60,355 nucleotides of DNA from a virus. A program made the translations under genes and the position numbers. The stretch covers positions 1 through 60,355 of the IMG/VR virus record IMGVR_UViG_3300028920_000077; one strand, written 5' to 3'. Below, one piece after another: positions 32,466 to 37,032 of this stretch (its first letter is position 1; every line of letters begins with the position of its first letter). The notes under the pieces are model-generated. The model was not told where the DNA came from. It did not search any database and worked only from the letters and a program-made list of their open reading frames with translations.

Positions 32466-32651
32466 TCACCAACCATAACCATCACCAGAACCATCACCAT
32501 AACCATAACCAGCCCCATCACCAGAACCATCACCATAACTAAAACTAGAACCATAACCATAACCATAACCAGAATCATCACCAGCCCCAGAACTAGAACT
32601 AGAACCATAACCATAACCATTGTAGATCATATTGTTTATTATTTTTTCCAT
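32466..32651 (-). CDS. Gly-X dipeptide-repeat protein, copy 3 (61 aa)
   Basis: After the conserved head MEKIINNMIYNGYG, the chain is almost entirely Gly alternating with Tyr, Ser, Asp or Ala, ending GYGW. It is built from imperfect hexanucleotides (GGTTAT, GGTGAT, GGTTCT). Its ATG lies 13 bp inside the end of the WYWDGA gene, exactly as for copy 2. A low-complexity, possibly phase-separating or surface-exposed chain is plausible. Function is unknown. Confidence 0.75.
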   Translation of the reverse strand: MEKIINNMIYNGYGYGSSSSSGAGDDSGYGYGYGSSFSYGDGSGDGAGYGYGDGSGDGYGW

Positions 32652-33001
32652 TGTTTCACCTCGCTTATAGATTTTATCGCTTGAGATGTACAGGGGATAA
32701 CTTCTATTGCATCCAATATAATAATCTTTGGAATCCATACGCTAAACTTACAATTTTCAGGTTTTATTGTTCCTTCTAATGCTAATTGATGCAAAGAGAA
32801 AGCACCATCCCAATACCAAATTCGCCTAGAAGTTAGTAATGTTACTTCTCTATTTTTTCTATTATCTATTTGCCCAAAAAAAACCCCAGACCTATCTCCT
32901 CTAATCAATACAAACTTATCATCTACCTCAACCTTTTTCAAAGTAGATTTCTTGACATAAACTTCGTTATTAATAGTTATTTCATCTAAATTTACTTCCA
33001 T
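32639..33001 (-). CDS. WYWDGA-motif (DUF6948-like) protein, copy 2
   Basis: The 120-residue protein contains LIRGDRSGVFFG, RRIWYWDGAFSLHQLALEG, KPENCKF and a C-terminal EVIPCT. These blocks are the family hallmarks of small phage proteins of unknown function (DUF6948, from memory). It differs from copy 1 at 30 of 120 aligned positions by eye. AGGAG is upstream. It is followed directly by a Gly-X gene that overlaps its end. Confidence 0.82.
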   Translation of the reverse strand: MEVNLDEITINNEVYVKKSTLKKVEVDDKFVLIRGDRSGVFFGQIDNRKNREVTLLTSRRIWYWDGAFSLHQLALEGTIKPENCKFSVWIPKIIILDAIEVIPCTSQAIKSISEVKQWKK

Positions 33002-33018
33002 TATATTTTTCTCCTATT

Positions 33019-33204
33019 CTAATGACCCATAAATTCTGGTAGTTCTTCATATTCTTTTTCGCTCATCTCCAACATTGTGAAAGATAAAGTTATTGATTCT
33101 CCAACTTGGAGATCGCACAATTCACCGTCTATTGCATCTTGGATTGTGTTTAATGGTTGGATGTAATTCCCACCACCTTTTAATTTAATATTTACTACTC
33201 TCAT
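33019..33204 (-). CDS. Small conserved phage protein (61 aa)
   Basis: It starts MRVVNIKLKGGGNYIQPLNT, with AIDGEL, QVGESITLSFTML and a final LPEFMGH. I recall similar tiny proteins in other phages without a known role. The ATGA overlap with the methyltransferase-like gene shows coupling, and GAGGGGG is upstream. Confidence 0.68.
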   Translation of the reverse strand: MRVVNIKLKGGGNYIQPLNTIQDAIDGELCDLQVGESITLSFTMLEMSEKEYEELPEFMGH

Positions 33205-33848
33205 AACGCCCCCTCAAAAAAACCAAATGGAACTTCGTTGCCCCAATAATCCCATCCATCACTTTCAAATGGTGGTCTGGCAAATAGTTCTATTCTGGGA
33301 ACATCACCAAATAAAGTTACTATTCTTTCCTTAACTTCTTTTGGTTTCTCACTGTGTCTCCCTATGGGAGTTATTATAAGGTTTCTAACAGCTTTACTTT
33401 CTCTAGGTAATGGTTTCCCCTTACCAAAAAGCAAACAAATTTCTGGATTAGCTCGACTGTAATGACCCATCCCGATCTTAAATAGTCTTTCTATGCTACT
33501 GGTATCAGCCAACAGATAGGATAATCTTTTTTCATAGTGTTTTAACATTTTAACCCAAGTAAACAAACAAGTCTTATACTTGAGCATATCTTTTTTATAT
33601 TTGACCTGTTTATTCCATGCATTTATATACTGAAAATACAGATTTAGATGAGGGTAGGTAGCCCAAGAGATTAATACAGAATCTTGATCCATAATACTGT
33701 GCATTTGAAAAGCCTTAATTGCTTTATCTAACATAGTATTATAATGGTGTTTGGCTGTTCTACCTTCACCTTTCTGACTCCAACATTTATAGTCTACTGG
33801 AAAATCACAGTAGACTATTTTGTATTTTTTGTTTGGTAGTGGTATCAT
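33201..33848 (-). CDS. MT-A70 family N6-adenine methyltransferase-like protein with altered catalytic motif
   Basis: The C-terminal part fits the family well: YSRANPEICLLFGKG, then RHSEKPKEVKERIVTLFGD, RIELFARPP and GWDYWGNEV. The catalytic DPPW, however, reads DFPV (residues 15-18: VYCDFPVDYKCW). DPPW is nearly universal in active members. The protein may thus be inactive, or act as a DNA-binding partner, or have shifted specificity. It is coupled to both neighbours by ATGA overlaps. Confidence 0.8.
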   Translation of the reverse strand: MIPLPNKKYKIVYCDFPVDYKCWSQKGEGRTAKHHYNTMLDKAIKAFQMHSIMDQDSVLISWATYPHLNLYFQYINAWNKQVKYKKDMLKYKTCLFTWVKMLKHYEKRLSYLLADTSSIERLFKIGMGHYSRANPEICLLFGKGKPLPRESKAVRNLIITPIGRHSEKPKEVKERIVTLFGDVPRIELFARPPFESDGWDYWGNEVPFGFFEGAL

Positions 33849-34240
33849 TGTTTCGCATCCAATTCTTGTATCAGGAGATTTATCATGCCAGTTAATTCTG
33901 TGCTAGCAAATAAGTTTAATAATTTAGCAACCAACTGCGAATCTAATTTCGCATCTCCGACAAATTCACTAGCATGGATATAATCTGTTGTTACTGAATA
34001 ATCTTCACCATCTAAATCGCTGTTTCCAAAAGAACAAACCAACCAATTATCATGTGGATCACCAGTAACGGATTTATATTTCATTCCATAGTATGGTCTA
34101 AATTCGTTAAGCTCTTCCAATCTCTTATGTAATTTCTTAATCCTAGCTTTGTTGTGGCATTTATCACTACAGAACACCTTTGTTTTGTGTTCTTTATTTC
34201 CTGTGCTACCACATTCTGGGCAAAATAACATGCTTGTCAT
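33845..34240 (-). CDS. Zinc-finger protein (131 aa)
   Basis: It begins MTSMLFCPECGSTGNKEHKT and continues KVFCSDKCHNKAR, giving C-x2-C and C-x3-C pairs like a treble-clef or FCS-type finger. A coiled segment and an acidic C-terminal half follow. The start at 34240 is set by AAGGAGG five bases upstream, not by an earlier in-frame ATG. The gene lies downstream of ssb in the recombination operon, so DNA binding is plausible. Confidence 0.68.
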   Translation of the reverse strand: MTSMLFCPECGSTGNKEHKTKVFCSDKCHNKARIKKLHKRLEELNEFRPYYGMKYKSVTGDPHDNWLVCSFGNSDLDGEDYSVTTDYIHASEFVGDAKLDSQLVAKLLNLFASTELTGMINLLIQELDAKQ

Positions 34241-34253
34241 AGTAACCTCCTTG

Positions 34254-35602: not shown

Positions 35603-35978
35603 TTGCTAAATATTTCCTTACAGATTCCCACGAGATAAAATGTATTGGTCTACCTTTACGCTCTCGCCTGAAACTTTTCACTTCGAATACATTCTCCTTT
35701 TTTAGCCTGTATAAAGTTTTATAACCAATTCCAAGGGATTCTTTAACTTCTTTGATTGTAGCATAACCCTTCGGTGGTTCTTGACATTCTTTTATATCTA
35801 TATATTGCGATTCTGGAACATTAAACTTATCAAACTCTTCCTGAGTGTAATAAGTTTTATTGCCTATAGTTTTACCTTTAATAAGCCTAGCAAGGCTTAG
35901 ATACCTTTGCTTATTAATTTTGTAGTGTTTCATGATGTCTTTCTTATCATAAAATTCTTGTCCTAGAATATTTATCAT
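35574..35978 (-). CDS. Helix-turn-helix DNA-binding protein (MerR/excisionase-like)
   Basis: The 134-residue protein has two possible HTH units. One is near residues 10-45 (DKKDIMKHYKINKQRYLSLA). The other is TIKEVKESLGIGYKTLYRLK at about 73-92, with a wing (RKGRPIHFISWESV). The second fits excisionase or MerR-like HTH. It may control the operon or act in DNA recombination. GGAGG is upstream. Confidence 0.68.
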   Translation of the reverse strand: MINILGQEFYDKKDIMKHYKINKQRYLSLARLIKGKTIGNKTYYTQEEFDKFNVPESQYIDIKECQEPPKGYATIKEVKESLGIGYKTLYRLKKENVFEVKSFRRERKGRPIHFISWESVRKYLANEQEKKKEI

Positions 35979-36027
35979 CTTTTAAAACCTCCATAGTTAT
36001 ATTTTTTGTTTTTTTGTATATTGTTTT

Positions 36028-36297
36028 TCACCAACCATAACCATAACCAGCCCCATAACCATCACCAGAACCATCACCATAACCAGAACCAGAACTAGAA
36101 CCATCACCAAAACCAGAATCATAACCAGAACTAGAACCATAACCAGCCCCATCACCATAACCATAACCAGAACCAGCCCCATCACCAGAACCAGCCCCAT
36201 CACCAGAACCATAACCAGAATCATCACCAGAACCAGAACCAGAACCAGAACCAGAACCATAACCGTTATATATGGTATTATTTGTTATCTTTTCCAT
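36028..36297 (-). CDS. Gly-X dipeptide-repeat protein, copy 2 (89 aa)
   Basis: The head MEKITNNTIYNGYG is followed by about 75 residues of Gly alternating with Ser, Asp, Tyr or Ala, ending GYGW. The DNA is a mosaic of near-hexanucleotide repeats, so repeat number could vary by slippage. The ATG overlaps the end of the copy 1 WYWDGA gene by 13 bp. No ribosome binding site is needed if translation is coupled. Confidence 0.78.
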   Translation of the reverse strand: MEKITNNTIYNGYGSGSGSGSGSGDDSGYGSGDGAGSGDGAGSGYGYGDGAGYGSSSGYDSGFGDGSSSGSGYGDGSGDGYGAGYGYGW

Positions 36298-36647
36298 GGT
36301 TCTATCCCAGAGATAGAATCTATAGCTTTTTTGGTGCAAGGGATTACTTCTATTGCATCTAAGATAAAGATTTTAGGTAGCCAAACAGTAAATTTACAGT
36401 TTTCTGGTTTAGATGTCCCTTCTAATGCTAATTGATGCAAAGAGAAAGCACCATCCCAATACCATAGCCTTCTTGAATTTAGTAAGATTACTTCTCTATC
36501 TTTTCTTTGATCTAATTTACCAAAGAAAACACCAGATCTATCACCTCTAATAATGACATAATTCTCATCTATTTCTGGTTTCTTCAAACTTGTTTTCTTT
36601 ACATAAACTTCGTTGTTAATTGTAATTTCATTTAATGTTGCTTCCAT
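36285..36647 (-). CDS. WYWDGA-motif (DUF6948-like) protein, copy 1
   Basis: The 120-residue protein begins MEATLNEITINNEVYVKK. It contains RGDRSGVFFGKL, RRLWYWDGAFSLHQLALEG, KPENCKF and VIPCT. The ATG at 36647 was chosen because AAGGAG stands five to eight bases upstream and because copy 2 has the same length. The open frame extends upstream only as an artefact of the repeat DNA. The role is unknown. Confidence 0.82.
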   Translation of the reverse strand: MEATLNEITINNEVYVKKTSLKKPEIDENYVIIRGDRSGVFFGKLDQRKDREVILLNSRRLWYWDGAFSLHQLALEGTSKPENCKFTVWLPKIFILDAIEVIPCTKKAIDSISGIEPWKR

Positions 36648-36687
36648 TGTTTTTCTCCTTATTAGTTTTTTTGTATATTGTTTCTTA

Positions 36688-37032
36688 CTAACCCGAACCC
36701 GAACCATTTTGTGATCCAGAAAAACTGACACCCGAACCCGAACCATAACCGTTACCTCCACCATCACCATAACCTCCACCATAACCTCCACCATCACCAT
36801 AACCTCCACCATAACCTCCACCATCACCAGAACCATCACCATCACCAGAACCATCACCATCACCATGACCCCAATTACCACCGCAACCATCACCATTATC
36901 ATAACCCGAACCCCCCCAACTAGAACCATCACCACATCCATTACCATAACCAGAACTAAAACTAGAACCATAACCACAATATTCACCCCAACCATAACCA
37001 TTATAGATTATATTTGCTATTATTTTTTCCAT
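36688..37032 (-). CDS. Gly-X dipeptide-repeat protein, copy 1 (114 aa)
   Basis: Shares the head MEKIIANIIYNGYGWGE with the other copies but has Cys, Trp and Asn in its first half and GGGYGGGYGDGGG units in its second half. It ends with SGSG rather than GYGW. It follows the ERF gene by 8 bp and is not preceded by a WYWDGA gene. It may be a more diverged member of the family. Confidence 0.72.
   Translation of the reverse strand: MEKIIANIIYNGYGWGEYCGYGSSFSSGYGNGCGDGSSWGGSGYDNGDGCGGNWGHGDGDGSGDGDGSGDGGGYGGGYGDGGGYGGGYGDGGGNGYGSGSGVSFSGSQNGSGSG

Follow-up and report, generated by a model that had tools for sequence, protein, structure and literature searches.

The DUF6948/Gly-X gene pair and its recurrence among phages

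Within the uncultivated virus contig IMGVR_UViG_3300028920_000077 of IMG/VR (60,355 bases, analysed over its whole length and referred to below as the window), we examined a duplicated two-gene module in which a small protein of Pfam family DUF6948 (PF22253) is followed by an overlapping gene for a low-complexity chain, Gly-X, where glycine alternates with a second residue. The two pairs comprise the following features:

32639-33001, minus strand: DUF6948 copy A, 120 residues; Pfam match; Sm-like small beta-barrel predicted via the model of copy B
32466-32651, minus strand: Gly-X copy A, 61 residues; low-complexity Gly-[Ser/Tyr/Asp], MEKIINNMIYNGYG...GYGW
32639-32651, minus strand: overlap of copy A, 13 bp, with the start ATG at 32651
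36285-36647, minus strand: DUF6948 copy B, 120 residues; Pfam match; protein taken for the structure model
36028-36297, minus strand: Gly-X copy B, 89 residues; MEKITNNTIYNGYG...GYGW
36285-36297, minus strand: overlap of copy B, 13 bp, without a strong Shine-Dalgarno sequence

Both window proteins are clear members of DUF6948, a family without an assigned function in Pfam (E-values of 1.7e-25 and 9.8e-26; 89.4 and 90.2 bits against a curated cut-off of 27). A preliminary description had counted 30 differences between two 120-residue proteins bearing the motif WYWDGA, and had placed the second gene 13 bp inside the first in both copies; the count and the coordinates proved exact, and at the DNA level the two DUF6948 copies are 77% identical. 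In copy A a Shine-Dalgarno-like GAGGTGA lies within the C-terminal codons of DUF6948, while the repeat codons of Gly-X copy B consist of GGT (GGG before GCT) followed by NNT. The Gly-X DNA pattern occurs once in the window, against a chance expectation of 0.00.

To extend the survey beyond the window, tblastn matched DUF6948 to 15 phage records, and an overlapping Gly-X reading frame was present at all eight of the loci that were opened. Scanning viral contigs with a single window protein as query returned no matches; an alignment query was required, and recovered 569 relatives, the best 80 of which were fetched. Our first sample comprised 89 loci whose downstream sequence was long enough to score: 79 of these 80, the eight from named phages and both copies of the window. 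Some of them are near-identical and therefore not all independent. In 87 of the 89 an overlapping Gly-X gene follows DUF6948. The association that the preliminary description had proposed to seek in other phages is thus found there, with overlaps of 13 bp in 67 of the 87 loci, 16 bp in nine, 17 bp in four and 19 bp in three. Among genome contigs, a Gly-X gene was scored after DUF6948 in at least 57 of 62, with a 13 bp overlap in 43. Upon inspection of the five misses, the start coordinate had been set before a stop codon in three (L188, L190 and L195, the second of which has a short tract in the downstream frame), and one (L229) was a script failure, the Gly-X frame there overlapping by 13 bp. 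Titles of these contigs name Bacteroidota, Bacillota, Pseudomonadota, Actinobacteria, Cyanobacteria, the Candidate Phyla Radiation and two archaeal metagenome-assembled genomes; archaeal phages are not claimed, because the binning of phage contigs is unreliable.

Also performed was a scan from the side of the tract, in which its DNA pattern was passed through the viral collection blind to DUF6948. Among the 89 tracts preceded by 350 bases or more, the DUF6948 profile identified a family member upstream of 74, and most of the remaining 15 had an overlapping gene upstream for a small protein with a similar pattern. Pfam searches of those 15 revealed one clear and one weak DUF6948; several others belong to a second family, WGT, and a few (e.g. 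L292, L248) have no visible relative upstream. WGT is a small phage protein with the motif RGWVFVG...RFWGT (L359-L438) and no match in Pfam, yet it is homologous to DUF6948 by profile comparison (probability 91%, E 9.7e-7), and a search with WGT as query found a Gly-X gene after 73 of 74 WGT genes, overlapping by 10 to 19 bp in most. WGT tblastn also matches Rheinheimera Barba phages, and comparison of the DUF6948 model with a viral structure library returned other DUF6948 proteins together with a Rheinheimera phage Barba protein; the two results fit each other and may concern the same protein.

The surveyed sequences show that an overlapping Gly-X chain nearly always comes after DUF6948 or a diverged relative. 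The gene pair is real, widespread and conserved, and undescribed in the literature searched (an open-access search found no paper naming DUF6948 and nothing on the pair); the preliminary observation was correct and understated in its reach. Among cultured phages, Iodobacter phage PhiPLPE is one carrier of the pair. In a Prevotella genome (oral taxon 376 F0043; L233, L234) a single contig carries two DUF6948/Gly-X loci, separated by about 90 kb and sharing their Gly-X start, which may be two related prophages. In the variants L029 and L182 the tract is lost or degenerate while an N-terminal leader resembling MEExIKRFL is retained.

The overlap itself is dual-coded. At 121 distinct loci the Gly-X start codon takes its first base from the last position of the codon preceding a tryptophan codon and its other two bases from that TGG, and the tryptophan codon of DUF6948 at the overlap is invariant; with an A ahead of it, the partner's ATG results. 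The preceding codon ends in A in 96.7% of these loci, compared with 35.9% expected from codon use for the same residues, a test that is partly circular in that scored loci had a start in that frame, as nearly all loci did. Shine-Dalgarno strength ranges across loci from TAAGGAGGT to none, with copy B of the window a weak case. The placement of the second start inside the first gene is conserved, as expected of translationally coupled genes. Taken together, the recurring overlap and the dual-coded start strongly support translational coupling, and with it the selection for coupled synthesis suggested in the preliminary description; re-initiation would be the natural reading of such coupling.

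The predicted barrel and the repetitive chain

We modelled window copy B with AlphaFold2 as a monomer, using 56 sequences, and obtained a mean predicted local distance difference test (pLDDT) score of 93.8. Foldseek comparison of this model against the PDB gave, as the 50 best matches listed, Sm/LSm proteins or chains of the spliceosome and small nuclear ribonucleoproteins (snRNPs), all at a probability of 1.00 and with target template modelling (TM) scores up to 0.69. DUF6948 is confidently predicted by this model to adopt an Sm/LSm-like small-barrel fold, and may work like an Sm protein. The mean net charge of DUF6948 is +1.4 versus -8 for the Gly-X chain.

Complete Gly-X genes (n=78) take two forms, 41 consisting of the tract only, as do all those in the window, and 37 having an added domain of about 150 residues. 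Within the tract, glycine alternates strictly over a median of 63 residues, and the X positions are occupied by Ser (38%), Tyr (28%) and Asp (23%); short forms are 42% Gly and 12% Tyr, a low-complexity composition with aromatic stickers. The C-terminal domain, with invariant residues WH..LT-SC..GR, had no consistent match in Pfam, NCBIfam or PHROG, and its model (pLDDT 92.9, predicted TM score 0.66) matched no fold in the PDB (best E 0.28). Among the loci collected, 157 of 169 matches to this domain follow a Gly-X tract. It also ends leucine-rich-repeat-like phage proteins in L246 (minus strand, frame at 8255) and L207 (5913 onward), the latter lying close to a DUF6948/Gly-X pair. A possible third form is represented by Gly-X proteins with a basic tail (RSRKRRRS, RTRRRT) in L289, L325 and L253. 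In a public phage record, the Gly-X gene at L441:4231-4545 is annotated as "lamprin", probably an artefact of composition.

Codon use in 125 distinct tracts differs markedly from that of neighbouring genes: GGY accounts for 96% of glycine codons compared with 56%, TCY for 93% of serine codons compared with 33%, and GGA plus GGG (tracts in L011-L090 and L170-L238) for 4% of glycine codons compared with 44%. Codon use is ordinary in the C-terminal domain that these genes encode. The third base within a given tract is near constant (median 100% at Gly and X codons; above 90% at both in 81 of 115 tracts), although the favoured base varies between phages (C/T, C/C, T/C or T/T). Mean within-tract entropies for the six positions of the repeated hexamer were 0, 0, 0.21, 0.95, 1.05 and 0.22 bits, the two bases that set Ser, Tyr or Asp being those that vary. 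Codons for these three residues are separated by transversions, and the tract rarely contains Asn, Phe, Cys or His, which a single transition would give. Repeated substrings were longer than in shuffled sequences in 28 of 84 tracts. Tract length differs by 18, 24, 26 or 40 residues between loci with identical upstream DNA, a comparison in which one pair differs by 1 and one by a frameshift, and which is open to the collapse of repeats during assembly from short reads. The pattern of uniform synonymous sites next to variable Ser/Tyr/Asp-determining bases points to fast turnover of repeat units combined with selection at the amino-acid level for a mix of the three residues. A G-quadruplex role was set aside, GGG making up about 1% of tract glycine codons. 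The variable bases, T/G and A/C, do not suggest a target of a diversity-generating retroelement, for which no template-repeat or reverse-transcriptase search was made.

Genomic neighbourhood

Also identified around the two pairs of the window were a further Gly-X gene and three other genes:

36688-37032, minus strand: third Gly-X gene, 114 residues; MEKIIANIIYNGYG..., with the C-terminal end GSGSG, not GYGW
37041-38075, minus strand: ERF single-strand annealing protein, upstream neighbour; Pfam ERF at 4e-13
34254-34595, minus strand: SSB-like protein of 113 residues with the acidic tip DDIPF
28281-31484, minus strand: protein of 1067 residues that matches DEAD/ResIII helicases; lies downstream of Gly-X copy A

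The third Gly-X gene had been described as standing alone beside ERF, and this was borne out: it begins 8 bp after ERF, has no DUF6948 partner and is preceded by its own GAGGT. Of the ERF and SSB genes between which the preliminary description placed the pair, ERF is matched by Pfam; the proposed SSB had no match in Pfam or PHROG, its DDIPF tip being the sole hint of that identity.

Among 40 viral contigs sampled for context, two of them near-identical, DUF6948 was single-copy in all 40, making the duplication in the window unusual. ERF was found in four contigs and RecT in ten; by distances taken by hand, these genes lie within 3.5 kb of DUF6948 in 12 of 14 cases and on its strand in all 14. 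SSB (PF00436) was present in four of the 40, and neighbouring genes include RecT/Bet/Sak4, SSB, exonuclease, DnaD and HNH. This company assigns the pair to the early replication and recombination region, a location that by itself does not demonstrate a role in recombination.

A candidate nucleic-acid-organising module

The interpretation offered in the preliminary description stands in part; it did not anticipate the predicted Sm-like fold, the domain at the C-terminus of Gly-X, a second barrel family or the codon pattern of the tract. We tentatively propose, at somewhat less than even odds, that the Sm-like protein and its co-translated, sticky, acidic low-complexity chain form a two-component module for organising nucleic acid. 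Ribosomes completing DUF6948 would step back a few bases and restart at the Gly-X ATG, and this re-initiation would set a fixed stoichiometry of the two products. DUF6948, perhaps as a ring, would bind RNA or single-stranded DNA. The chain, acidic and studded with tyrosines, would self-associate whether or not it has the C-terminal domain and, early in infection, draw DUF6948 complexes together into a condensate of phage ribonucleoprotein or nucleoprotein. Granules of eukaryotes offer an analogy, in that LSm proteins enter them together with low-complexity partners. Of the roles suggested in the preliminary description beside a putative single-strand DNA platform, that of a condensate-forming partner is plausible for Gly-X; nucleic-acid binding and condensation by the pair are steps that we infer. 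In a broader and rather doubtful form of the proposal, phages of hosts in many bacterial phyla would share an undescribed apparatus of an Sm-like nucleic-acid binder co-translated with an evolving Gly-(Ser/Tyr/Asp) polymer, the tract changing by unit turnover under amino-acid selection, that together compartmentalise phage RNA or replicating DNA as a viral counterpart of ribonucleoprotein granules. If true, a widespread and unexplained phage gene pair would gain a common architecture and a function open to testing, a DUF family would be tied to an Sm-like fold, and a minimal two-gene low-complexity system would be available. With its synonymous sites homogenised and its amino-acid sites variable, the tract is a clean natural experiment in how selection acts on low-complexity proteins, and even without a condensate, pairing conserved in diverged phages speaks against the repetitive chain being junk.

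Several results weigh against the proposed module. The best Foldseek E-value for the DUF6948 model was just 9.4e-3, and hhalign comparison of DUF6948 with archaeal LSm and with bacterial Hfq, each represented by a small alignment, gave probabilities of 0.5-0.7%, compared with 77.5% for LSm against Hfq. No LSM or Hfq match was found for window copy B in Pfam at E-values up to 10, and direct homology to Sm/LSm/Hfq, tested by profile, was unsupported at a probability below 1%. The strong avoidance of GGA and GGG in the tract is unexplained by a role of the protein only, avoidance of Shine-Dalgarno sequences being a plausible reason for the preference for GGY. Furthermore, no recognisable ERF or RecT was found in 26 of the 40 contigs; because these form the majority, and because early genes cluster anyway, the recombination role raised in the preliminary description is weakly supported by the proximity of ERF or RecT where they can be recognised.

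The codon signature is also what a reading centred on RNA would draw upon, in which the Gly-X mRNA, besides encoding the protein, is itself the ligand, its regular GGY-NNY repeats being bound by the Sm-like protein encoded in the same operon, for autoregulation or as an RNA sponge. Sm-fold proteins read short repeated motifs, every third base of the tract is a pyrimidine, and GGY and TCY are enriched over neighbouring genes. However, the third base differs between phages, leaving no single RNA motif, the choice among Ser, Tyr and Asp is made at the amino-acid level, and in half of the loci the frame runs on into the conserved C-terminal domain; the TCY bias also follows from homogenisation of units, since codons for Tyr and Asp must end in a pyrimidine. 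We consider this explanation quite unlikely. Nor do we think it likely that Gly-X is a structural, silk-like polymer forming beta-sheets or fibres in the cell or virion, with the barrel as its assembly factor and no nucleic acid involved. Silk has Gly-X repeats, which the strict alternation of the tract resembles, and the lone third Gly-X gene of the window is in keeping with this reading, but Asp occupies nearly a quarter of X positions, the partner is predicted to be Sm-like, and the genes are sited among those of recombination and replication rather than structural genes.

Repeat turnover bears on two further explanations. The tract might be a fast-evolving recognition surface in phage-host conflict, for instance by decoying or inhibiting a protease or a defence of the host, with the order of Ser, Tyr and Asp conferring specificity. 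PRDM9 zinc fingers form an array in which homogenised synonymous sites likewise stand beside variable amino-acid-determining bases, the C-terminal domain recurs on leucine-rich-repeat proteins, and tract length differs between near-identical loci. Since a varied order at constant composition fits a composition-only, sticker-and-spacer role equally well, and tract lengths from short-read assemblies are unreliable, this too appears improbable. A selfish or neutral minisatellite behind a useful gene would account for repeat turnover and length variation, yet we regard it as very improbable given that the tract occurs almost universally, and always in one place, after members of both diverged barrel families, in phages that infect many different hosts, and given its dual-coded start and selection at the amino-acid level; a neutral repeat is further disfavoured by the keeping of the frame. 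Chance association of the two genes was ruled out by the searches begun from either one, the pairing recurring in hundreds of other loci.

As far as our limited open-access literature search goes, the pair has no matching described system, neither the overlapping Gly-X partner nor the Sm-like fold of DUF6948 having been found described there. The FUS-type Gly/Tyr/Ser chains of eukaryotic RNA granules resemble Gly-X in their many Gly-Tyr-Gly and Gly-Ser-Gly units and disordered-type composition. Unlike these, Gly-X shows strict two-residue alternation with almost no Arg, Lys or Gln, and is a phage product encoded by a separate gene that overlaps that of its partner. Sm, LSm and Hfq proteins share with DUF6948 the predicted fold, to judge from the structural matches listed, whereas DUF6948 lacks profile similarity to them, carries in its model a helix-containing insertion before the last strands, and differs in its conserved residues (RR.W.W.GA). 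One report describes bacterial Hfq cooperating with the polyanion polyphosphate on DNA (PMC10954037), a case that, like the proposed pair, joins an Sm-fold protein and an anionic polymer on nucleic acid. In the phage pair, for which we infer such binding, the polymer would differ in being a phage-encoded acidic protein.

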